NCBI GenBank assembly: GCA_026706345.1
Contig: JAPOYX010000023.1
Location: 37,256-101,255, forward strand
From: Gemmatimonadota bacterium
Lineage (GTDB): Bacteria > JAAXHH01
Length of the DNA: 64,000 nucleotides
Direction: 5' to 3'
Shown here piece after piece: positions 52,555-64,000 of the stretch; position 1 is the stretch's first letter; each line of letters opens with the position of its first letter. Under the pieces are notes generated by a model. The model did not search any database. It saw nothing but the letters and a program-made list of their open reading frames with translations, and was not told the origin of the DNA. A program made the position numbers and the translations under genes.

Positions 52555-53652
52555 ATGCGACCAACACCGGCCAATCCGGGCGTGAAGCAAGTTCCGCTAC
52601 TCACCTCAGACCAGATCGCCCGCTTCAAGCGCGACGGCTTCCTCGTGCTGCCCGCCGTGCTCGACCCTGAACTATGCCGCCAGGCCAGGGAAGCACTGTG
52701 GGACGCAGTGGAGACACACAACCCCGCTATGAAACGCGGCGATCCCACCACCTGGGCGCCTTTCAACGACGAAGTAAGCGGCCAACTTAATGCGAAGCGG
52801 CCCGAGATCGGCGGCGACCCCTATTTCTTCACCGAAGGCCACCGCTTCTATGTCCGCAACGGCGCTGAGCCCTTCATGCTCGACCTGGCCCCCCGGGCCC
52901 TCTGGCAGGTCGCCGAGCAACTACTTGGCCAGGGTACGGTAGTGTGGCCGGCCGGGGCGGACGAGTCCGGCATGACGACCGGGCCGTGCTTCATGTCCGA
53001 CGACATGGTGGGCGGGCTGGCCACTCACGGGATCGAAGAGACCGGGCAATGGCCCGAAAAGGGATCCTTCACCACGGAAGAAGCGCTGCGCCTGCCCAGG
53101 ACGGGTCCGGTGTGGTCTACCGGGCAAGGGACTCGCGGCCTGTACTGCACCCTGCCTGGCAGCCCGTCTCCTGGTCCGGACTACCGCGGCGCCCATTCCG
53201 ACGGCGCATGCTACGGCCGCGTCCGGTTTCAGGTGACCGCCTATGTCGACGACCTGCCGCCCGATTCCGGCGGATTCACGGTGTGGCCGGGAAGCCACAG
53301 ACGGATCTGGCGCGAACAGTGGCAGGCCTTTCTCGAAGGCGCAAAGCATATGGACGAACACCTGGCGGGACGCAAGCCCGGCTACAGCGACGCGGTAATC
53401 CAGCGCATCAAGCGCGATACACAGCCCGTCGACTGCCACGGCCCCGCCGGCACGGCGGTCCTTTGGCACACCAAGATCCTCCACATCGCCGGGCAGAATA
53501 CGTCGGCCGACATCATCCGCCAGGCGACCATCTACGGTTTCCTCAAAACGCCCGAATCCCTGCCGGACTCGCTCATGACGGATCACACCAACCTCGACAT
53601 CTGGCGGGACTGGTCCGAAGAGGTGCGTGGCATTGATGAGCGTCAGCAATAG
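52555..53652 (+). CDS. Phytanoyl-CoA dioxygenase family protein 7
   Basis: About 365 residues. Iron site: His214 and Asp216 (RGAHSDGACY) and His310 (LHIAGQN), with Arg322 for 2-oxoglutarate. The long segment before the His-x-Asp (residues 60-200, with GLYCTLPGSPSPGP) is larger than in the other copies. The first ATG is at 52537, but the second (52555) has a perfect GGAGGT 11 bases before it; either is possible. The last gene of the operon that starts at 47161. Substrate unknown. Confidence 0.88.
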   Translation: MRPTPANPGVKQVPLLTSDQIARFKRDGFLVLPAVLDPELCRQAREALWDAVETHNPAMKRGDPTTWAPFNDEVSGQLNAKRPEIGGDPYFFTEGHRFYVRNGAEPFMLDLAPRALWQVAEQLLGQGTVVWPAGADESGMTTGPCFMSDDMVGGLATHGIEETGQWPEKGSFTTEEALRLPRTGPVWSTGQGTRGLYCTLPGSPSPGPDYRGAHSDGACYGRVRFQVTAYVDDLPPDSGGFTVWPGSHRRIWREQWQAFLEGAKHMDEHLAGRKPGYSDAVIQRIKRDTQPVDCHGPAGTAVLWHTKILHIAGQNTSADIIRQATIYGFLKTPESLPDSLMTDHTNLDIWRDWSEEVRGIDERQQ

Positions 53653-53658
53653 CGCTCT

Positions 53659-53698
53659 GATTCCGGCCTCTACAGCCGTTGCGGCTTCAGCCGGAATC
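53659..53698 (+). terminator. Compound hairpin after the last metabolic gene
   Basis: GATTCCGGC pairs with GCCGGAATC nine by nine, enclosing a second stem AGCCG-TTG-CGGCT. It follows the PhyH stop by seven bases. The word GCCGGAATCTCC recurs just after it. A T run is missing, so it is a terminator or attenuator candidate only. It marks the border between the GC-rich metabolic region and the defence region. Confidence 0.4.
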
Positions 53699-53828
53699 TC
53701 CTCTTAGCCGGAATCTCCGCAAGGAAACCGCCAGGAGCCGGCGCTACCATTTCTACGACAACGGCATCTCGAACGGACTGATCAACAGCTTAACCTCTTG
53801 GATCGTATGTCATAATAGGGAGCTTCTG

Positions 53829-53846
53829 CTCGCGAGATCTCGCGAG
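53829..53846. promoter_or_regulatory. 18-bp perfect palindrome upstream of the AbiEi-like gene
   Basis: CTCGCGAGATCTCGCGAG, about 100 bp before the start at 53946. Symmetry and position suit a dimeric regulator such as a toxin-antitoxin repressor. Confidence 0.5.
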
Positions 53847-53876
53847 ATGGAAGATCGCAATGAGTATTCATTTCCC

Positions 53877-53910
53877 ATTTGTCAGATAATTATATATATT
53901 TCTGACAAAT
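53877..53910. promoter_or_regulatory. Inverted repeat operator candidate and AT-rich promoter region
   Basis: ATTTGTCAG and CTGACAAAT, nine-base perfect arms separated by 16 bases of almost pure A/T (ataattatatatattt), which offers -10-like TATATA words. It ends 36 bp before the start of the AbiEi-like gene, the usual place for autoregulation of toxin-antitoxin operons. Confidence 0.55.
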
Positions 53911-53945
53911 TACAGGAGGAGATTACGGAAATAGAGGATACAACA

Positions 53946-54548
53946 ATGCCTGGTCTTCCGAAACTCATCATGGAACACGCTTCCGAAACTTCCGAGGGGA
54001 CGCTGTTGTGCCCGAACGCCCTACTTCACCTCGGAACCCGGTCGGCGGTGGACCAGGCGTTGTCGCGCCTGGCTCGAAACGGTCGTCTGATGCGCATCTG
54101 CCAGGGTATGTACGCGCGCCCTGTAGAAACTCGCTTCGGCTTCCGGCCGCCGGCAGTTGAAAAAGTGGTTATGTCCCTGTCGGTGCTGACCGGAGAGACG
54201 ATTGTTCCCTGCGGCGGCGCTTTTGCAAACGCCTTGGGATTTACCACGCAGGTCCCGGTACGGTCGGTCTATCTGACCTCCGGGCCGGACCGGTGTCTGA
54301 AGTTCGGCGAACTGCGGGTGGAATTGCGCCACTCGCCGAGTTGGCAACTGGTTGCTCCCCACCGGAAAGGTGGCGACACTATACGCGCCCTGGTCTGGCT
54401 GGGTCCACGGGAGGTCGAGGAGCACGTCGGGATGATCAAAAACAAACTCTCCGCGGAGGACCGCCGGGAACTATTGACTTTGCGCGCGGCGATGCCGACC
54501 TGGATGGCCGAACCCGTGAGCAGGATGATTACTGACAATGCCGGATGA
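53946..54548 (+). CDS. AbiEi-type (DUF6088) antitoxin-like protein
   Basis: A 200-residue protein that matches the DUF6088/AbiEi layout: an N-terminal winged-helix segment (GTLLCPNALLHLGTRSAVDQALSRLARNGRLMRICQGMYARP) of the kind that binds operator DNA, then PCGGAFANALGFTTQVPV and a C-terminal segment ending near PTWM. In type IV systems AbiEi represses its operon and counters the AbiEii nucleotidyltransferase toxin. No AbiEii is present here; a HipA-like kinase follows instead. The open frame extends 89 codons upstream, but GAGGA seven bases before the ATG at 53946 and the family N-terminus fix the start. Codon use is less GC-rich than in the genes to the left. Confidence 0.82.
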   Translation: MPGLPKLIMEHASETSEGTLLCPNALLHLGTRSAVDQALSRLARNGRLMRICQGMYARPVETRFGFRPPAVEKVVMSLSVLTGETIVPCGGAFANALGFTTQVPVRSVYLTSGPDRCLKFGELRVELRHSPSWQLVAPHRKGGDTIRALVWLGPREVEEHVGMIKNKLSAEDRRELLTLRAAMPTWMAEPVSRMITDNAG

Positions 54549-54654
54549 CTTGCAGAATGTAACAGCAAGGCTGAAGTAACCATAGTCCGTAAACAGGAAA
54601 CGCGGTTGACCAGATTGGCCGACCGGGTTACCTTGTATGTAGTAAGGACGACAT

Positions 54655-55668
54655 ATGACACGGCGTTCACGGAAGAATCGATACACAACGACGTCCAGTA
54701 AAATCGAGGTGGATATTCGAGCAATTCCCCTTCTCCTTCCCGGGGGATGGAAGCTTTGCGGTTTAGAAGAGTTTCCGATTGTCGGCACGGTCCCGAAGAA
54801 CTATTTAGCCTACGGTGATCCTCAATCACCAACAACTACTGGTTACATTGCCAAAAGGGGGCGTTTGAAGGACTACGCACGAGAGTGCGTGACAGAGGAA
54901 ATCATATCAAAAATCGGAGTGCTGTTGCCAGTCAAGATGGCCCGTTCGAAGTTGGTTCGCATTTCGAAAGACGACGTCCGATTCCTTTCCCAGAATTTCG
55001 TAGTGCGGCGCGAATTCGAATTACTCCATGGAATTGAACTTGCAGCGCGGTATTTCCAAGCCAATCCATCTGAAGTTGAATCAGCATTCGAGTTGCAGAA
55101 TCGTGCCAGGGAGACTGATTTTTACACGATCAAAAACATATTGGAAATCCTTTCCTCATTGTATGAAAAAGACTACGGGAATCTGGAAGAAGGATTTTTC
55201 AGGATGGTTGCTTTCGATGCGTTTATCGGGGCGCCTGACAGGCACGGAATGAACTGGGGTGTTCTCGAACCTGTTGAAGGGAATGAAGGGCCTATCCGGT
55301 TCTCGCCGATTTTCGATACTGCACGGGGGCTTTTTCGCGAATACTCGGACAGTGCGTTGATCAAGCAGGCCCAAAATCAGGGACGAATGGGCTTCCTTGA
55401 AAACTATGCCAACAAGTCGCGGCCTATTTTCAGCACAGGACGGGATAATAAAGACGACCACTTTTCCCTGATCGGTTGGATTTCGTCTGAATTGCCGGAC
55501 CGGAACAGGAAGACGATTTGTCGGGTGTTCGACGCGGTGAATATACAAAAGATAGAACGGATGCTCCAGATGCGGTTTCGTAGAATCATAACCCAGGACC
55601 GAATCGGGTTTATCAGGGATCTTCTCGCATTACGAATTGACCGTCTTCGGGAGGAGGTTCGAATATGA
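54655..55668 (+). CDS. HipA-like protein kinase core (HipT-like)
   Basis: A 337-residue protein that resembles the kinase part of HipA without its N-terminal subdomain. The catalytic loop is GAPDRHGMNWGV, with Asp195 as the catalytic base and Asn200 as a metal ligand. The DFG-equivalent Asp221 is in SPIFDTARGLF. KDDHFSLIG and an N-terminal GYIAKRG...ECVTEEIISKIG segment (Lys for ATP binding, Glu) also fit. HipA-family kinases phosphorylate targets such as aminoacyl-tRNA synthetases and stop growth. AAGGA lies six bases before the ATG. The next gene overlaps by four bases and encodes the missing HipA N-terminal subdomain. Confidence 0.8.
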   Translation: MTRRSRKNRYTTTSSKIEVDIRAIPLLLPGGWKLCGLEEFPIVGTVPKNYLAYGDPQSPTTTGYIAKRGRLKDYARECVTEEIISKIGVLLPVKMARSKLVRISKDDVRFLSQNFVVRREFELLHGIELAARYFQANPSEVESAFELQNRARETDFYTIKNILEILSSLYEKDYGNLEEGFFRMVAFDAFIGAPDRHGMNWGVLEPVEGNEGPIRFSPIFDTARGLFREYSDSALIKQAQNQGRMGFLENYANKSRPIFSTGRDNKDDHFSLIGWISSELPDRNRKTICRVFDAVNIQKIERMLQMRFRRIITQDRIGFIRDLLALRIDRLREEVRI

Positions 55669-56072
55669 AGATAAGTTTCGCGGATCTACTTAACCCGAAA
55701 GCATGGGGGACAGCACTCGCTCGCGCTTCTTCAGATGCACCATCAGAGCGCAAATTGGAAGTTTATCGGCAAACCACGGACGCGCCGCGTTTGGTGGGCA
55801 CCCTGTCCCTGGACCAGGATGAGTTTGTGTTCCGTTATGTCTCGGGCTACGATATGGATCCGATCTCGGCGTTTCCAATGATTGACGAGGAATATCGATC
55901 CAGGCATCTATGGCCGTTCTTCGCCGTTCGCATCCCCCCGATAGAACGCGAGGATATGCAAGAGAAGATCTCGAGTCGGTTGCTCGAAAAAGATCAAATC
56001 ATCGAGATTCTTGGATTGGTTGCCAGGGTTTCAGTAACCAATCCTTATGAATTCAGGCTCGAGGGAGATTGA
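55665..56072 (+). CDS. HipA N-terminal subdomain protein (HipS-like)
   Basis: A 135-residue protein corresponding to the HipA N-subdomain 1: LEVYRQTTDAPRLVGTLSLDQDEFVFRY followed at a short distance by PISAFP. In the E. coli HipBST system this piece, HipS, is a separate protein that neutralises the HipT kinase. Here it lies after the kinase rather than before it. ATGA joins the two genes. Its stop is followed after two bases by the DUF433 start. Confidence 0.78.
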   Translation: MKISFADLLNPKAWGTALARASSDAPSERKLEVYRQTTDAPRLVGTLSLDQDEFVFRYVSGYDMDPISAFPMIDEEYRSRHLWPFFAVRIPPIEREDMQEKISSRLLEKDQIIEILGLVARVSVTNPYEFRLEGD

Positions 56073-56074
56073 AA

Positions 56075-56278
56075 TTGGATCGCATTACCGTACAGGCAGG
56101 CATCTTTGACGGCAAGCCGATTATTCGCAATATGCGCATCGCAGTGGAACACGTCCTGGGGATGCTCGCGTCAGATGACACGACGGAGACGATACTTCGG
56201 GAATATCCGGATCTGGAGGCAGAAGATATCCAGGCGTGTCTGCTCTTTGCCAAGCGCAAGACGCAAGAATCGGCATAA
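56075..56278 (+). CDS. DUF433 domain protein
   Basis: A 67-residue protein of the DUF433 family (DRITVQAGIFDGKPIIRNMRIAVEHVLGMLASDD...EEYPDLEAEDI-type), small proteins that often form antitoxin-like pairs with DUF5615 PIN-like nucleases. The TTG at 56075 has GGGAG seven bases before it; an earlier TTG at 56069 overlaps the previous stop. The usual DUF5615 partner is not found. A 56-codon frame starting at 56278, overlapping this stop by one base, has no recognisable domain and may be a remnant. Confidence 0.8.
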   Translation: MDRITVQAGIFDGKPIIRNMRIAVEHVLGMLASDDTTETILREYPDLEAEDIQACLLFAKRKTQESA

Positions 56279-56454
56279 TGTCCGATGAAACCCCGAAGGT
56301 ACGAGTCATACCCCCAACGTGCCTCCCCGGTCCTGATTCCATCCCCTGTATAAACCGACTTCTACCAGATAATCTGCGGCCGGAAGTACCCAGTAAATCC
56401 TCTCGTTTTCGACAGGCTTTAATCGTCTGTAATTTACCTACTGCATAATTTTAC

Positions 56455-56483
56455 TTGAGATAATTACCCGCGCTGTATATCTT
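56455..56483 (+). promoter_or_regulatory. Promoter candidate of the type I restriction-modification operon
   Basis: TTGAGA (56455-56460), 17-bp spacer and TATCTT (56478-56483). Transcription would start near 56490, which supports the second ATG of hsdS at 56513. It lies in an AT-rich 234-bp gap. Confidence 0.45.
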
Positions 56484-56512
56484 CTGTAGATATGATACAG
56501 CGACACAAACAT

Positions 56513-57118
56513 ATGCGAATCGGAGATGCCTGTGCAATCCTTACAGGCTATACTTCCCGCGGCAGACTTCTACCGGCTGAACAAGGCGGTTCGCTCACGC
56601 TCCAACTGGGAGACGTGTCTCCGGACGGTCACGTTGATCCCGACCGCCTGACGCGCGTTGCCTTCGATGATCTGCCTGAACGGTACCTCGTGGGCCGGGG
56701 CGAAGTGATCTTCCGTTCGAGGGGCGAACCGAACATCGCCGTCGCCCTGGATGATCGTTTCGTCGAACGGGCCGTGGCCGTCCTGCCCCTTTTCGTGCTA
56801 CGCCCGAAGCCGGAGATTCTCCTGCCCGAATTCCTCGCATGGGCGATCAACCAACCCGCTTCTCAGCGTCACTTCGACCGGGTAGCCCGTGGCACGACCA
56901 TGCGCATGGTGCCCCGGTCCGGCCTTGAAATCCTGGAAATAAGTGCCCCGCCAATCGAGACGCAACGCCGGATCGTTGCGGTCGACGCGCTGGCCGAACG
57001 CGAACGGCGCCTGACCATCCTCGCCGCGAACAAGCGCAGGACCATCACCGGCAAAATACTCTACGATCAGGCAACGGCAACAGATTCGGACGCGTTACGA
57101 GAAAGGAAAACGAAATGA
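56513..57118 (+). CDS. Half-size type I restriction-modification specificity subunit
   Basis: A 201-residue protein with a single target recognition domain (MRIGDACAILTGYTSRGRL, LQLGDVSPDGHVD, GTTMRMVPRSGLEILEISAPPIETQRRIV) and one conserved helix. Full HsdS has two such units; half-size forms work as dimers or as remnants. The frame opens at an ATG at 56492, but the family N-terminus begins at 56513. Its stop overlaps the hsdM start as ATGA. A full-size HsdS follows hsdM, so two specificity proteins share one methylase. Confidence 0.82.
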   Translation: MRIGDACAILTGYTSRGRLLPAEQGGSLTLQLGDVSPDGHVDPDRLTRVAFDDLPERYLVGRGEVIFRSRGEPNIAVALDDRFVERAVAVLPLFVLRPKPEILLPEFLAWAINQPASQRHFDRVARGTTMRMVPRSGLEILEISAPPIETQRRIVAVDALAERERRLTILAANKRRTITGKILYDQATATDSDALRERKTK

Positions 57119-58632
57119 CAAACCAGACCACGCAGCAGCAGGTCAACCAGACCGCCTGGGCCGCCTGCGACACCTTCCGGGGCGTCGTCGATGCCGGTCA
57201 ATACAAGGACTACATCCTCGTGATGCTGTTCCTCAAGTACATCTCGGATCTGTGGGACGACCGCGTGGAGCGCTTCCAGGAGCGTTACGGCGGCGACGAG
57301 GCCCGGATCCGCCGCAGACTGGCCCGCGAGCGCTTCGTCCTGCCCGAGGGCGCGAGTTTCTACGATCTGTACGAACGGCGCGAAGCAGCGAATATCGGCG
57401 AGTTGATCAACATCGCCCTGCAAGAGATCGAGGACGCGAACCGTTCGAAGCTCGAAGGCGTGTTCCGCAACATCGACTTCAACTCGGAAGCCAACCTCGG
57501 CCGGGTAAAGGACCGCAACCGCCGTCTCGTCAACCTGCTCCGGGATTTCGCCAACCCGGACCTCGATCTGCGTCCGTCGAAGGTGTCTGGAGACGTAATA
57601 GGGGAGTGTTACCTCTACCTCATCTCGCGTTTCGCGTCGGACGCTGGCAAGAAAGCCGGGGAATTCTACACGCCGTCCGCCGTTTCCCGGTTGCTCGCCG
57701 GTCTCGCCGCGCCGAAGCCCGGCGACACGATATGCGACCCGGCCTGCGGTTCCGGTTCGCTGCTGATCCGCGCCGCCAACGAAGTCGGTTCGGGCAACTA
57801 CGCCCTCTACGGGCAGGAGGTCAACGGCGCGACCTGGGCCCTGGCGCGGATGAACATGTTCCTGCACGCGAAGGACGCCGCGCGCATCGAGTGGTGCGAC
57901 ACGCTCAACAGCCCTGCGCTCGTCGAGGGGGATCAGCTGATGAAGTTCGACGTGGTGGTGGCCAATCCCCCCTTCTCGCTGGACAAGTGGGGCGCGGAGA
58001 ACGCGCCGAACGATCCCTTCGCCCGGTACTGGCGCGGCGTGCCGCCCAGGTCGAAGGCCGACTACGGCTTCATCACGCACATGATCGAGATCGCCAGGCG
58101 GGGCAGCGGCCGCGTCGCGGTGATCGTTCCGCACGGCGTGCTCTTCCGGGGTGGTGCCGAAGGCCGGATCCGCCAGGCGCTGATCGAGGAGAATCTGCTC
58201 GACACCGTGGTCGGCCTGCCCGCGAACCTCTTCACCACGACCGGCATTCCCGTGGCCATCCTGGTCTTCGACCGGTCGCGCGAGCAGGGCGGCGAGAACG
58301 AAGACCGCAGAGACGTGCTGTTCATCGACGCCAGCAAGGACTTCAAGCCGGGCAAGACGCAGAACGTCATGGACGACGGGCATATCGAAAAGGTCCTGGA
58401 GACCTGCCGGACCCGAGCCGAAACCGAGAAGTACGCCCACGTGGCCAGCCCGGAGGAGATCGCCGAAAACGACTACAATCTCAACATCCCCCGCTACGTC
58501 GACACCTTCGAACCGGAGGAAGAGATCGACGTCGCCGCGGTCCAGAAGGAGATCGACCAGATCGAAGCCGAACTGGTCCAAGTGCGCAAGCGGATGAAGA
58601 AATACCTCAAGGAGCTTGGCGTCGATGTCTGA
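57115..58632 (+). CDS. hsdM: Type I restriction-modification methylase subunit
   Basis: A 505-residue N6-adenine methyltransferase. The N-terminal helical domain (DTFRGVVDAGQYKDYILVMLFLKYISDLWDD) is followed by AGEFYTP, the S-adenosylmethionine motif DPACGSGSLL (Asp208) and the catalytic NPPF (Asn284). The last 60 residues are coiled and end MKKYLKELGV. HsdM with HsdS methylates the recognition site; with HsdR the complex cleaves unmodified DNA. It overlaps the half-size HsdS by four bases. A 41-codon frame from 58639 to 58764 in the gap to the next gene is not credible as a gene. Confidence 0.95.
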   Translation: MTNQTTQQQVNQTAWAACDTFRGVVDAGQYKDYILVMLFLKYISDLWDDRVERFQERYGGDEARIRRRLARERFVLPEGASFYDLYERREAANIGELINIALQEIEDANRSKLEGVFRNIDFNSEANLGRVKDRNRRLVNLLRDFANPDLDLRPSKVSGDVIGECYLYLISRFASDAGKKAGEFYTPSAVSRLLAGLAAPKPGDTICDPACGSGSLLIRAANEVGSGNYALYGQEVNGATWALARMNMFLHAKDAARIEWCDTLNSPALVEGDQLMKFDVVVANPPFSLDKWGAENAPNDPFARYWRGVPPRSKADYGFITHMIEIARRGSGRVAVIVPHGVLFRGGAEGRIRQALIEENLLDTVVGLPANLFTTTGIPVAILVFDRSREQGGENEDRRDVLFIDASKDFKPGKTQNVMDDGHIEKVLETCRTRAETEKYAHVASPEEIAENDYNLNIPRYVDTFEPEEEIDVAAVQKEIDQIEAELVQVRKRMKKYLKELGVDV

Positions 58633-58741
58633 GGGGAAATGACCGAATGGGCAACTCGTACGGGATGCTTACAAGTTCGGATCAAGGCAGCTGTAAAGGA
58701 TTACTTGATAGTTCAAATTGAGAGGAAACTAAAGGTCGAAT

Positions 58742-59974
58742 ATGGGTACAGTTCTACCACATAGAGAAGGTAGGGTTTTTCTGTCAGACCTGGGCGAATT
58801 CATCAAGGGGCGCGACATAACCAGGGCTGATCTGGTCCAATCCGGAATTCCCTGTCTGAGGTACGGCGATCTCTACACGACCTACGGCGACGTGACCGAC
58901 GAACTGACCTCGTTCGTATCCGAAGATACGGCACGAAGGGCGACGCCACTGCACCATGGCGACATCATCTTCGCGGCTTCGGGAGAGACGGCCGGGGAAA
59001 TCGGCAAGGCCGTCGCATGGTTGGGGAATGGTACGGCGGTAGCCGGCGGCGATACGATCATCTTGCGTGGCCACGGACAGGATCCCACCTTCCTGGCCCA
59101 TGCGCTGAACGCAGATGACGCGGTTAGGCAGAAGTCGAGGTTGGGCAAGGGGCATTCTGTCGTTCACATCCACGAAGCGGAGCTTGCCAAGGTTTCCGTG
59201 TTTCTGCCGCCGATTTCTGATCAGCGCAAGATTGGGGAGATCCTACGCACGTGGGATGACGCGGCTAAGAAGTTGGGGGTATTACGGACGGAGAAAGAGC
59301 GACTTCTAAGACGTTTTTACTCGGTTGTTTTTCAGCCGGGTTCACCCATCAACAGATTTTGGGCGGAATACCGAATTGGTGAATTCCTAATCCCACGTGT
59401 AGAGTATGCTCTACCTAAGGCGAATCTTCCACTCTATTCGTTGACGATTGAAGATGGTGTGACCCCCAAAACCGAACGATACAACAGAGATTTCCTGGTC
59501 AAAGATCACAATTCCAAAACTTACAAGATAGTTCATCCAGGCGATATTGTATTCAATCCATCAAACCTACGTTGGGGTGCAATCGCGCGCTCAGATGTTA
59601 ACCACGACGTACTGTTGTCTCCCATTTACGAAGTACTCGAGGTAAGTTCGGACAAAATAAACGCCGACTACCTCACGCATGCACTAACATGTCCATTTCA
59701 AATTCGTCGCTTCGCAACAAAGGTTGAAGGGACTCTATTGGAACGGATGGCTGTCAAACTAAATGCATTTCTGATGAGCAAAATCGTAGTTTCGACAGAT
59801 AAGCAAGAACAGGCAGGTTTCTCAAATCTGTTAAATTCAATGCAGGAAGAAATCCAGTTCTTATTGGAACAGTTTTCCACTGTCGTACTCCAAAAACGCG
59901 GCTTGCTTCAGAAACTGCTTTCCGGAAACGGTCGTTTAGATTCTATCGACACTCGACTACCCGTAATAAGGTGA
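58742..59974 (+). CDS. hsdS: Type I restriction-modification specificity subunit, full size
   Basis: A 410-residue HsdS with two target recognition domains. The first begins FLSDLGEFIKGRDITRADL and ends at LPPISDQRKIGEILRTWDDAAKK; the second spans about residues 205-370 and ends near TDKQEQAGFSNLLNSMQEE, each followed by a conserved helix that sets the distance between half-sites. The second half is visibly more AT-rich than the first, a sign that recognition domains have been exchanged. It is followed 10 bp later by the large NTPase gene. Confidence 0.9.
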   Translation: MGTVLPHREGRVFLSDLGEFIKGRDITRADLVQSGIPCLRYGDLYTTYGDVTDELTSFVSEDTARRATPLHHGDIIFAASGETAGEIGKAVAWLGNGTAVAGGDTIILRGHGQDPTFLAHALNADDAVRQKSRLGKGHSVVHIHEAELAKVSVFLPPISDQRKIGEILRTWDDAAKKLGVLRTEKERLLRRFYSVVFQPGSPINRFWAEYRIGEFLIPRVEYALPKANLPLYSLTIEDGVTPKTERYNRDFLVKDHNSKTYKIVHPGDIVFNPSNLRWGAIARSDVNHDVLLSPIYEVLEVSSDKINADYLTHALTCPFQIRRFATKVEGTLLERMAVKLNAFLMSKIVVSTDKQEQAGFSNLLNSMQEEIQFLLEQFSTVVLQKRGLLQKLLSGNGRLDSIDTRLPVIR

Positions 59975-59984
59975 GACCATAACG

Positions 59985-62900
59985 ATGCCACTTCCTGGCG
60001 GACCTGCAGATAAGTTTGGAAACCGGTATGAGACTTGGTGGACGATCAACCAACTGATCCGAGTCATCAAGGGCGAAGCCGAGAGCATTCGAATTGAGGA
60101 TCCTTCGTTTCCTGCAGCGGAATTCGTCCTTTCAATCGAAAACCGCCACGAGTTTCATCAGGCAAAGCGTAGCCATCCAAGGGGTAAGTGGAGTCTTTCC
60201 GCACTCGAAAACGAGAATCTTCTACAAGCGATTTTCAGATATCTTTCACAAGACAGTAATGCGAGATTTGTCTTTGTCTCAGGCAGTGATGTGCCGGAGT
60301 TAAGAGAGTTAATAGAACGTGCTAATCGAGCAAAGAATCTGGAGGAATTCGAGTCAAGGTTTCTTGACACCAAGAATCACAGGGAAGCTTTCGATAAACT
60401 CAAAAATTCGTGGTATAACGCAGAAACGGCCGTTGTATACAATATTCTGCAGTGTATTGAAGTCCGTACCACTGATGAGAGGGGAATAGAAGATCAGGTA
60501 CGTCAATCATTATCACTACATTTCCTGAGCGACCACACTGAGGTTTGTAACGCGTTGCGTGCCATAGTGCAAGATTCGATGCACGCAACCTTAGATCGCG
60601 AACATCTGGTTTCGAACCTTGAAAGCAGGGGATTCAGATTGCGACGCCTCGTTAATCCGAGCAATGCCCCCATTCTCGTTACCGAGGTCACCAATCGCTA
60701 TACCGAAGACATCCGACGGCAACTTATCAATAAATCCTCCATAGCTCGGTCAGAAAGCGAAACGCTACTCGTTACATTGACAAACGCCGAAACCAGTATC
60801 GACCGCGTTATCACCGGAAACGCCGGAAGTGGAAAGTCAGCGTGTATACTCGAATGCGTAGATGGCCTCCGTAGAAGGCATTCTACCGTACTCGCCTTCC
60901 GTCTGGATCGGATAGAGGCGATATCCTCAACTAAAGAACTGGGAGAAGGCCTAGGACTAGAAGAATCACCAGTATTGGTACTGAAAGCTGCGGCAGAAGT
61001 TGATTCACGCGACGCAGTGCTCATTATCGACCAACTTGATGCCGTGAGTACGGCGTCTGGGCGCAGTACGGCATTCTTCAATGTCGTTGAAGATCTATTG
61101 GAAGAGGCACAGGGTTGCCGCGACACGGTGAAATTCCACATCGTTTTGGTCTGCAGAAAATTCGATTGGGAGAATGATCCTCGTTTGCGCCGCCTTCTTG
61201 TAGATAAAGACGACGAGATTCCCATTGCTGACTTCTCGTCTGAGCAAGTGGGCACTGTGCTTCAGACTAGCGGTTTCAAAACTGAGTGGTTCAACGCAAA
61301 CCAACTGAAACTGCTGGGCCTTCCACAGAATCTGGCAGTGTTTTTGGAATCTAATCCTGATTCCAAAACGCGACCAAGATTCACCACAAACAAGGAGTTG
61401 TACGACAGTTACTGGGAAGTGAAACGTCGATCCGTAAATGAGCGTGCAGGTTTCCCCGATAACGATCCATGGCACGAGATTACCCAAGAACTGTGTGATG
61501 AAATGTCTGCTTCACAGCAACTTTCGGTAATGAAGGAAAAACTGGATCGCTTTCCCGAACAATATGTAAAAAGTATGGCCTCTGAGGGTGTCCTATCGAA
61601 CGCTGTCGGGCGTTACGCTTTCAGTCATGAATCGTTTTTCGATTATTGTTTTGCGCGCGTTTTCGTGACTCAAAACGACTCCCTCATCGACTTCCTCAAG
61701 GCGTCGGAACAACATCTTTTTCGAAGAGCGCAGGTGCGACAAGTCTTGGAGTATCTTCGTGATGTCGATAGGGATCGTTACTGTCGCGAACTTCAAGCCT
61801 TACTGACAGATGGCCGGATTCGTGTTCACTTGAAGGAAGTAGCCGTTTCTAGGGCCGTATTCCTGCCCGATCCATGTGAAGGCGAATGGAACGTGCTGGT
61901 CCCATGGATCGAATCAGAACTTGAGTCAATTCAGAACGGGGATACGAACGCAGGTAAACTCGCGTCTCTCGTATGGGATCGTTTTTTCAATTCCGAATCC
62001 TGGTTTCCGATGGCAGACGGACGCGGATTGATATCGAAATGGCTTGAATCGGGGAACGACTATCTTGTAGACATGGCAGTCAGCTACGTCAGACGCCATC
62101 AGAGCCACTCGGGCGATAGGGTAGCCGAACTTTTGGAACCGTTCATTGACATGGGTGGTGAATGGCAGAGGCGGTTCTTTCAAGTAATACAATGGCCCGA
62201 ACAAGTAAACAGTCGGAGATTCTTCGATCTGTTTCTCAGTCTGATCGATAATGGAACTTTGGATAACGCCAACTTCGACATCTTCAGGACAAAGGCATAT
62301 GTTTTAATCAAAACGCGTCCTGACTGGGTCGCTGAAGTAATCGCTCATTGGTTGCACAGACGACTCCACAATCTTCTGACGACCGGGGCGGAACCAGATT
62401 ACAACGACTGGATGAGTCTGATCGGAAAAGATCGTCACGATGCAGGAACAATCCTGGAAGCTGCCGCCAAAGCCCCAGAAGCGTTCGCCAGACATATGCT
62501 GCCGGTGATCCTCAATATTGCCGATGTGGCCGTTCTGAAAGAGGATAATAAGCCACCAAGGCAAGACGGTGTATGGATCATGATAGCCCAAACAAAGGAT
62601 CATGCTCCTCTTGACGAGGCATGTCGTGATGCCGTTGCAACGGCATTGGAAAGACTCGCAGAGACAAACGCTGAACAAATCGGCCCGATTCTGGGCGAAC
62701 TCAAGAAGCGAGACACAGTTATAGCGAACTATCTTCTTTTTCGGACCTATACCGCAGGCGCAGAGCACTTTGCGGACGACGCAGTTTCCGAACTTTTCGA
62801 AAAGACATGGCGCTTCGAATGCGAGTATTCTGGTAGTATGTATTGGATGGCGACTCAGTTGATAGAAGGCATCGCCCCCGCCTGCTCCGAAGAGAGCCTT

Positions 62901-64000
62901 ACGAGGCTTGAAAGGGCGATTTTGGATTACGTTCCGGATTTTGAACGCACTCGTGAGGGTTACAGACGTCGGGCCAGAGGATATGCTTCTTACTGTCTGC
63001 TGTCCGCCATTCCGGAAAAATTGCGCAGCGAGCACGGCCAGGTCCGTTTCCGAGAGCTTGAACGCAAGTTCGGCAACATGAAAATACCGCCTCCGCAGAA
63101 GATCGAGACAGGCTTTGTTAGATCTCCGATTGATGATGCGACTGCCGAGAGAATGACGGATGCACAGTGGTTAAGAGACATTGAAAGATATGATTCTGAC
63201 AAGGTCCCGTTCGACAGAGAAGATCCATTCAAAGGCGGAGCCACGCAACTCGCCGTCATGTTGCGATCTTACGTAAAGAAGCATCCGGAACGGTTTGCGC
63301 GGCTGTGCCTCAGATTTCCCGCGGACACGAATCCGGTCTATCTAGAAAACGTGCTCATCGGACTATCTGAAACAAGTGCGCCTACAGAATTTACATTGGA
63401 TGTATGTCGGAGAGCGTTCTCCGAGAGCACCGATCGTTTGGGTGGTTCGATTGCCGATTTATTGGGTTCCATTGAGGAACCACTTCCAGATGACGTCATA
63501 CAGATGCTCGACTGGCTGGCAACGGAAAGTACGGGACTGGACTTTGGTCTCCTGATTGGTGGTCAAGGTGGCGACTCTGGCGAGGTAGATCTTGTTACAA
63601 AAGGGGTCAACACTACACGTGGACGGGCCGCCTTGGCGATAGGCAAGCTCATACAAAGGGATTCTTTGTGCGTTCACCGCTTTCAATCCACACTCGAAAA
63701 ACTGACAATCGACCAGTCTTCCGCAGTTCGGACGTGCGTTGCTAGTACTGTTCTGACCATTTCCGCGTACGACAGGGAATTGGCATCACGCCTGTTTCTA
63801 AGACTAATTGAACCTTGTGTAAGCGATGTCGATGACCACGGTTTGCTGGCAACGCCGGATGTGGAGACTTTCATCAACTATGGTTTACGAGATGGATTCG
63901 AACGCCTTGTGTCCGTTATCGAACATATGCTGCGCTCGGAGTTGCCACAAGTCGCCACGGCAGGAGCACGGCTGGCGGGCCTCGCTGTGCTTTACCGATA
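59985..64000 (+). CDS. Very large STAND-type NTPase with nuclease-like N-terminus, truncated by the window edge
   Basis: An open frame of 1338 codons with no stop before the window ends, so the protein is longer. Residues 1-130 resemble nuclease domains of PD-(D/E)XK type as in Cap4-like or Mrr-like effectors, with EFHQAK (Glu56, Gln59, Lys61) as the core. The NTPase domain spans about 255-560: Walker A GNAGSGKS (278-285), Walker B VLIIDQLDA (Asp349), a sensor-like CRKFDWENDPRLRRLL, and SHESFFDYCFA (His548), the NACHT-type closing motif. The rest is helical, repeat-like sequence. Such architectures are typical of anti-phage STAND effectors of the Avs kind, in which the C-terminal repeats detect a phage protein and the nuclease then attacks DNA. 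It starts 10 bp after hsdS, with AAGGTGAG before the ATG at 59985. Its base composition is unlike the left half of the window. Confidence 0.85.
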   Translation, partial: MPLPGGPADKFGNRYETWWTINQLIRVIKGEAESIRIEDPSFPAAEFVLSIENRHEFHQAKRSHPRGKWSLSALENENLLQAIFRYLSQDSNARFVFVSGSDVPELRELIERANRAKNLEEFESRFLDTKNHREAFDKLKNSWYNAETAVVYNILQCIEVRTTDERGIEDQVRQSLSLHFLSDHTEVCNALRAIVQDSMHATLDREHLVSNLESRGFRLRRLVNPSNAPILVTEVTNRYTEDIRRQLINKSSIARSESETLLVTLTNAETSIDRVITGNAGSGKSACILECVDGLRRRHSTVLAFRLDRIEAISSTKELGEGLGLEESPVLVLKAAAEVDSRDAVLIIDQLDAVSTASGRSTAFFNVVEDLLEEAQGCRDTVKFHIVLVCRKFDWENDPRLRRLLVDKDDEIPIADFSSEQVGTVLQTSGFKTEWFNANQLKLLGLPQNLAVFLESNPDSKTRPRFTTNKELYDSYWEVKRRSVNERAGFPDNDPWHEITQELCDEMSASQQLSVMKEKLDRFPEQYVKSMASEGVLSNAVGRYAFSHESFFDYCFARVFVTQNDSLIDFLKASEQHLFRRAQVRQVLEYLRDVDRDRYCRELQALLTDGRIRVHLKEVAVSRAVFLPDPCEGEWNVLVPWIESELESIQNGDTNAGKLASLVWDRFFNSESWFPMADGRGLISKWLESGNDYLVDMAVSYVRRHQSHSGDRVAELLEPFIDMGGEWQRRFFQVIQWPEQVNSRRFFDLFLSLIDNGTLDNANFDIFRTKAYVLIKTRPDWVAEVIAHWLHRRLHNLLTTGAEPDYNDWMSLIGKDRHDAGTILEAAAKAPEAFARHMLPVILNIADVAVLKEDNKPPRQDGVWIMIAQTKDHAPLDEACRDAVATALERLAETNAEQIGPILGELKKRDTVIANYLLFRTYTAGAEHFADDAVSELFEKTWRFECEYSGSMYWMATQLIEGIAPACSEESLTRLERAILDYVPDFERTREGYRRRARGYASYCLLSAIPEKLRSEHGQVRFRELERKFGNMKIPPPQKIETGFVRSPIDDATAERMTDAQWLRDIERYDSDKVPFDREDPFKGGATQLAVMLRSYVKKHPERFARLCLRFPADTNPVYLENVLIGLSETSAPTEFTLDVCRRAFSESTDRLGGSIADLLGSIEEPLPDDVIQMLDWLATESTGLDFGLLIGGQGGDSGEVDLVTKGVNTTRGRAALAIGKLIQRDSLCVHRFQSTLEKLTIDQSSAVRTCVASTVLTISAYDRELASRLFLRLIEPCVSDVDDHGLLATPDVETFINYGLRDGFERLVSVIEHMLRSELPQVATAGARLAGLAVLYR

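Follow-up and report, generated by a model that had tools for sequence, protein, structure and literature searches.

A split HipA-type kinase and HipS pair at the place of AbiEii in a Gemmatimonadota defence island

In a stretch of 64,000 nucleotides from a Gemmatimonadota genome (the window), a gene for a short HipA-fold kinase is followed directly by a gene for a HipS homologue, and together with a DUF433 gene they stand downstream of an AbiEi gene, where a sibling genome has AbiEii. The probable explanation, in our view, is that a two-gene and probably self-controlling toxin-antitoxin pair in hipJS order took the place of AbiEii, the toxin of another and older system, and left an orphan AbiEi upstream. 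What looks like a four-gene system would then be mostly an accident of gene swapping, with AbiEi and DUF433 as left-over single antitoxin genes, and the locus does not show that a new four-gene system exists. The kinase-then-HipS order is already known from hipJS (PMC8262856); new are a subfamily that lacks both the Gly-loop serine and Trp65, and a documented replacement of AbiEii. The locus provides a clear case of toxin exchange inside a conserved defence island, and brings to light a deep split Hip kinase subfamily in at least five phyla. The features are as follows.

53643..64000, no strand assigned: defence island (AbiEi, kinase-HipS, DUF433, HsdS, HsdM, HsdS, STAND-like ATPase), continuing to about 64583, past the window end
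53877..53910, no strand assigned: inverted repeat ATTTGTCAGATAATTAT/ATATATTTCTGACAAAT, putative AbiEi operator (repeat search, promoter scan)
53946..54548, + strand: AbiEi antitoxin/regulator (DUF6088), orphan, AbiEii partner gene absent (Pfam/PADLOC, orthologue in sibling genome G006)
54531..56473, no strand assigned: block of kinase, HipS and DUF433 at AbiEii's place in the homologous island of G006 (blastn, window versus G006)
54655..55668, + strand: short HipA-fold Ser/Thr kinase without HipA N-subdomain 1, toxin candidate (Pfam, structure model, PDB fold search, 11-member alignment)
55665..56072, + strand: HipS-like protein of 135 aa, no HIRAN, antitoxin candidate (HipS profile match, fold search)
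56069..56278, + strand: DUF433 protein, orphan antitoxin-like gene, partner DUF5615 absent (Pfam)

The four genes and the split kinase

All four open reading frames are present on the + strand in the co-directional, tightly packed order originally predicted. The first (53946-54548) matches DUF6088 in Pfam at E 3e-21, with AbiEi as its top PADLOC model (1e-55), and a gap of 106 bp separates it from the second (54655-55668), which matches HipA_C at 1e-10 over residues 44-228. The last three overlap, as had been noted: the kinase and HipS genes share 4 nt (ATGA), and the DUF433 gene (56069-56278; Pfam DUF433 at 1e-21) starts at a TTG that overlaps the HipS stop (TTGA). The third open reading frame (55665-56072) reaches only a sub-threshold Couple_hipA match as a single protein (0.0017), and the same domain matches 10/10 members of its HipS-like family (best 5e-7). 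A profile built from the ten members finds the solved HipS of E. coli at 2e-7, with HI_0666 of H. influenzae and L. pneumophila HipS also among its matches. In the fold search the HipS model, which is of lower confidence (pLDDT 72), has structures of those HipS proteins as its top five. The Pfam, PADLOC and family profile results therefore bear out the domain assignments first made for the four genes. The protein downstream of the kinase is, by profile and predicted fold, a HipS homologue that would supply the missing N-subdomain 1. Couple_hipA is the only Pfam domain found in the window protein and in the HipS set, with no HIRAN domain in either.

The predicted HipA-fold similarity of the kinase is also present. 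Its AlphaFold model (pLDDT 79.6, pTM 0.83) matches CtkA (1e-10), Legionella HipT (4e-5) and HipA (5e-5) in a Foldseek search of the PDB, HipA_C is matched by all 11 full-length members of the kinase family, and HipA N-subdomain 1 is absent. With a HipA-fold kinase and a HipS homologue in the next gene, a split HipA-type pair is present. The 11-member alignment and motif table show G44, K48, K67, D195, N200 and D221 to be invariant. By analogy with HipA and HipT, the kinase has a Gly loop (GTVPK), an ATP lysine (K67), a catalytic aspartate (D195, in DRHGMN) and a Mg-binding aspartate (D221), and the corresponding family motifs PDRHxMNW (D195) and FDTARG (D221) are both invariant. Because the active-site residues are invariant, the kinase should, as predicted from its sequence, be an active enzyme.

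Two features count against reading the pair as toxin and antitoxin. The family Gly loop (GTVPK or GAVPK) has no conserved serine in the motif table, a serine that is autophosphorylated in HipA and HipT, and HipS lacks Trp65, which is required for HipT neutralisation in E. coli (PMC10627512) and according to the literature is not conserved in every HipS. The Trp65 position, which follows an invariant PP, holds acidic or small residues in this family, and the subfamily motif, LWPFF..R.PP..R.D, is unlike that of E. coli HipS. With both residues absent, inhibition must therefore differ in detail, and HipS would have to neutralise the kinase through other contacts, should the pair work as toxin and antitoxin.

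For the toxin-antitoxin pair that we favour, the kinase would be the toxin and the translationally coupled downstream HipS its antitoxin, supplying as a separate protein (in trans) the N-subdomain 1 that in HipA is part of the kinase chain (in cis). HipS would dock on the kinase near the ATP loop and hold it inactive, and the stop-start overlap would tie HipS production to kinase production; loss or displacement of HipS would free the kinase to phosphorylate an essential target in the cell and so arrest growth, as abortive infection or to retain the island. We infer the toxicity of the kinase and its neutralisation by HipS from hipBST (PMC10627512) and from the hipJS proposal (PMC8262856). The island context, with its AbiE and restriction neighbours, is no more than suggestive of a defence role for the pair.

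Known Hip systems and the window subfamily

The kinase had been thought unusual in preceding HipS. The order is indeed present, but it is not unusual among known systems, having been published as hipJS (HipJ kinase with HipS) by Gerdes et al. 2021 (PMC8262856). Like hipJS, the window pair combines a short kinase without N-subdomain 1 and a separate HipS gene directly downstream, with neither HipB nor a HIRAN domain. Unlike hipJS, kinases of the window subfamily are 334-376 aa long, against at most 321 aa in the short clade XI families, and HipJ, which is compared here by description only, is described as close to HipI, whereas the window subfamily is far from it (about 21-29% identity to HipI-type kinases). 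The hipIN system likewise has a kinase gene followed by an overlapping HipS-bearing gene, but HipN is about 250 aa with a C-terminal HIRAN, in contrast to the 135 aa of the window HipS without one. The window proteins match the PADLOC models PDC-M03A/B at 1e-31 and 3e-12; model lengths lead us to infer that PDC-M03 corresponds to hipIN, and the related form with HipS-HIRAN appears to fall under this PADLOC candidate. No literature account of PDC-M03 was found among open papers. A separate hipIN-type pair (kinase plus HipS-HIRAN) adjoins a short-chain dehydrogenase gene at L005, L010 and other sibling loci.

A scan of GTDB genomes returned 13 kinase relatives at 48-83% identity; below these, none exceeded about 40% (over short stretches), and most others were at 23-30%. 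The window subfamily falls on one side of a supported branch of the tree (support 99, length 3.8), although long branches leave its exact placement unsure. Most of the kinases next nearest to it precede a gene for a protein of about 240-270 aa, the size of HipN, with HIRAN content as in HipN where tested (the HipN-type protein of L010 has HIRAN). By these sequence comparisons, the subfamily appears deeply separate and rarely sampled among split Hip kinases.

The hipBST systems of E. coli O127:H6 and L. pneumophila also consist of a split kinase core with a HipS antitoxin, and the window HipS matches their HipS structures in both the profile and the fold search. Their order, however, is B-S-T with an HTH HipB, whereas the window has kinase-HipS, no HipB-type gene and DUF6088 upstream, and neither the Gly-loop Ser/Thr pair of HipT (S-psi-S) nor the HipS Trp65 is found in the window pair.

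Among solved structures, CtkA of Helicobacter pylori (PDB 3AKJ) is the top match of the kinase in both sequence and structure, though at 17-18% identity. CtkA is a secreted pro-inflammatory kinase and is not known to be half of a toxin-antitoxin or split pair. That relationship, the absence of the inhibitory Trp65 and the departure of the LWPFF..R.PP..R.D motif from E. coli HipS would all fit a regulatory protein kinase, in which HipS is an activating or substrate-choosing subunit and not an antitoxin. We consider this improbable, given that the HipS fold matches true HipS antitoxins, and that mobile toxin-antitoxin modules typically show the patchy distribution, empty sites and low G+C seen here.

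Conservation and spread of the pair

HipS lies directly 3' of the kinase in 12/12 loci with readable downstream sequence (the window and L072-L082, with relatives 48-76% identical and one kinase broken by insertion), and the 4-nt overlap, ATGA or GTGA, is kept in every one of them. In the broken case (L082:1803-4579), an inserted element, which has inverted ends and carries a 481-aa ORF, interrupts the kinase relative, and the downstream HipS is intact. Going by record titles, the pair is carried by Latescibacterota, Gemmatimonadota, Pseudomonadota, Binatota and Acidobacteriota. Its neighbours are not conserved with it: neither DUF6088 nor DUF433 occurs near the pair at any of the 11 other readable loci (flanks of up to 4 kb, shorter on some contigs), and among the genomes examined the four-gene arrangement is present in this one only. 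These neighbourhood data contradict the original prediction of a single toxin-antitoxin or defence unit. That all four genes constitute one dedicated system would suit their co-directional, tight packing at this one locus, but they were found together nowhere else, and in siblings AbiEi and DUF433 each have another gene as their true partner; we reject such a unit on neighbourhood conservation and regard it as very improbable indeed.

In two genomes of the same genus (G010, and G005, whose contig ends inside the kinase), the pair stands alone between an MlaD-like gene and an O-methyltransferase gene. The same site is empty in ten other genomes, including the window's own, with the flanking genes directly joined. 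The pair was thus inserted as a self-contained unit of about 1.85 kb. Because the G+C content of the kinase (48.5%) is below that of the window (61.2%), the pair is, judging by composition, of horizontal origin and arrived horizontally in this genome. Comparison of the window's genome (G000) with G010 gives dN/dS of about 0.16-0.21 for the kinase and 0.14-0.21 for HipS, low values that indicate that both are maintained.

We found no relatives of the pair on the plasmids searched or in viral contigs, and phages gave only two distant HipA-domain matches; spread by plasmids, phages or viral contigs was rejected accordingly, and this scarcity also counts against the toxin-antitoxin reading of the pair. 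Another possibility is that the locus is only a collection of toxin-antitoxin genes, degenerate or parked, in a defence-island hot spot, with a non-functional copy of kinase-HipS. Two of the four genes are orphans, the relative at L082 is broken by insertion, and such fragments accumulate in defence islands, but the four frames are open, the kinase catalytic residues and ATGA overlap are kept and dN/dS is low, and we give this account little credence.

Exchange at the AbiE site and the surrounding island

In sibling G006, an AbiEi orthologue (81% identical in protein) occupies the same site and is followed by AbiEii (PF08843, 2e-35). The DNA alignment between the window and G006 ends at 54530, in the last AbiEi codons, and resumes at 56474, 18 bp before HsdS, these junctions being read from a fragmented assembly (293 contigs). 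The unaligned segment is 1.94 kb in the window (kinase, HipS and DUF433) versus 1.16 kb in G006 (AbiEii), and homology between the islands is otherwise broken at the variable HsdS2. From this break and resumption, the kinase-HipS-DUF433 block occupies AbiEii's place. Because G006 shows the AbiEii state and G010 and G005 show the module alone, the kinase-HipS module can be delimited closely. As predicted, there is no AbiEii relative or motif near the four genes; an AbiEii remnant was rejected, with none detected by tblastn and no AbiEii motif in this region of the window. A second, complete AbiE is present elsewhere in the window's genome.

The simplest reading of the alignment is that the kinase block displaced AbiEii, this direction probably being the correct one. 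The reverse, AbiEii replacing the kinase block, is possible but less likely, because an AbiEii motif lies close to 20/27 of the DUF6088 genes examined and a HipA motif to 0/27 (several of the seven without an AbiEii motif are on short or truncated loci). The pair would have entered horizontally, with or beside the orphan DUF433, replacing AbiEii in an AbiE operon and leaving an orphan but intact AbiEi and its operator upstream. The locus resembles AbiE, a type IV toxin-antitoxin system, in having an AbiEi gene with an inverted-repeat promoter and in the complete AbiE at the same site of G006, and differs in that AbiEii is gone and replaced. AbiEi is, on this comparison, an orphaned remnant of an AbiE operon.

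DUF433 lacks its usual nuclease partner, as had been noted. Its closest relative in the genus (G004, 75%) precedes a DUF5615 PIN-like gene, whereas the window gene has no such gene adjacent, and tblastn gave no credible DUF5615 match in 53001-58000 (best E 0.87, 10 residues). A DUF5615 remnant was rejected, and the window DUF433 is by its gene context an orphan.

The inverted repeat at 53877-53910 is unique in the window (expected 0) and overlaps a promoter-like site at 53872-53900, the sole + strand one ahead of AbiEi; the G006 repeat is the same but for one base. AbiEi proteins are described as binding promoter inverted repeats and repressing their own operon (PMC7319586), and by analogy with this autoregulation the repeat is a putative AbiEi operator. 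A perfect palindrome, CTCGCGAGATCTCGCGAG, lies upstream of it at 53829-53846 and is absent from the aligned G006 sequence.

AbiEi itself is intact, with dN/dS of 0.22 against the G006 orthologue, and 12 changes on its branch versus 8 on that of the G006 copy are no clear excess; decay of the orphan was rejected. Such preservation is unexpected in a long-useless gene and counts against the reading that we prefer. In the interval from AbiEi to the kinase, the scan found no terminator-like and no strong promoter-like site on the + strand, which makes it plausible that transcription from the AbiEi promoter continues into the kinase; the 106-bp gap holds no kinase promoter at the scan threshold (a weak TTGACC-17-TACCTT seen by eye is uncounted). 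Since AbiEi is intact, its repeat is kept, AbiEi repression is known and nothing strong intervenes, AbiEi may regulate the new genes, though a recent swap would leave the same picture. AbiEi could then be re-employed as a HipB stand-in, autoregulating a recently assembled toxin-antitoxin system of three or four genes, AbiEi-kinase-HipS(-DUF433), the last perhaps bound in by the TTGA overlap of HipS and DUF433. If true, a type IV antitoxin with its operator intact would control a HipA-type kinase toxin. This hybrid operon seems unlikely to us, though somewhat less so than the regulatory or parked readings: it is seen in one genome only, the kinase-HipS pair is found without AbiEi elsewhere, and no HipA neighbour accompanies any other of the 27 DUF6088 genes. 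The swap may moreover be recent, so the intactness of AbiEi proves little.

The island is bordered by a phytanoyl-CoA dioxygenase-like gene on one side and by conserved flank on the other. Among the siblings read, island genes are at the dioxygenase site in G000 and G006 only, the G006 island comprising AbiEi, AbiEii, HsdS, HsdM, HsdS and a large ATPase; in the others different flank sequence, most of it conserved, comes after the dioxygenase gene (readable for a short stretch only in G002, where the contig ends). Two specificity genes flank HsdM, one half-size (56492-57118, 208 aa) and one full (58742-59974, 410 aa), and the second is the part that varies between G000 and G006. Between HsdS2 and an HsdR-like gene (L011:17244-19781, 845 aa), within the type I restriction locus, lies a gene for a 1519-aa protein (59985-64000 and on to about 64542; L011:12241-16800) with a weak AAA/STAND-type ATPase match and a C-terminal HEAT-like match; it matches PADLOC PDC-M54A at 8e-21 and has a G006 orthologue at the same place. 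A 190-bp segment between the large ATPase and HsdR in the window's genome (64584-64775 equivalent, C23:101839-102030) is conserved beside the dioxygenase gene in several siblings, and its displacement suggests either two separate insertions or a composite island.
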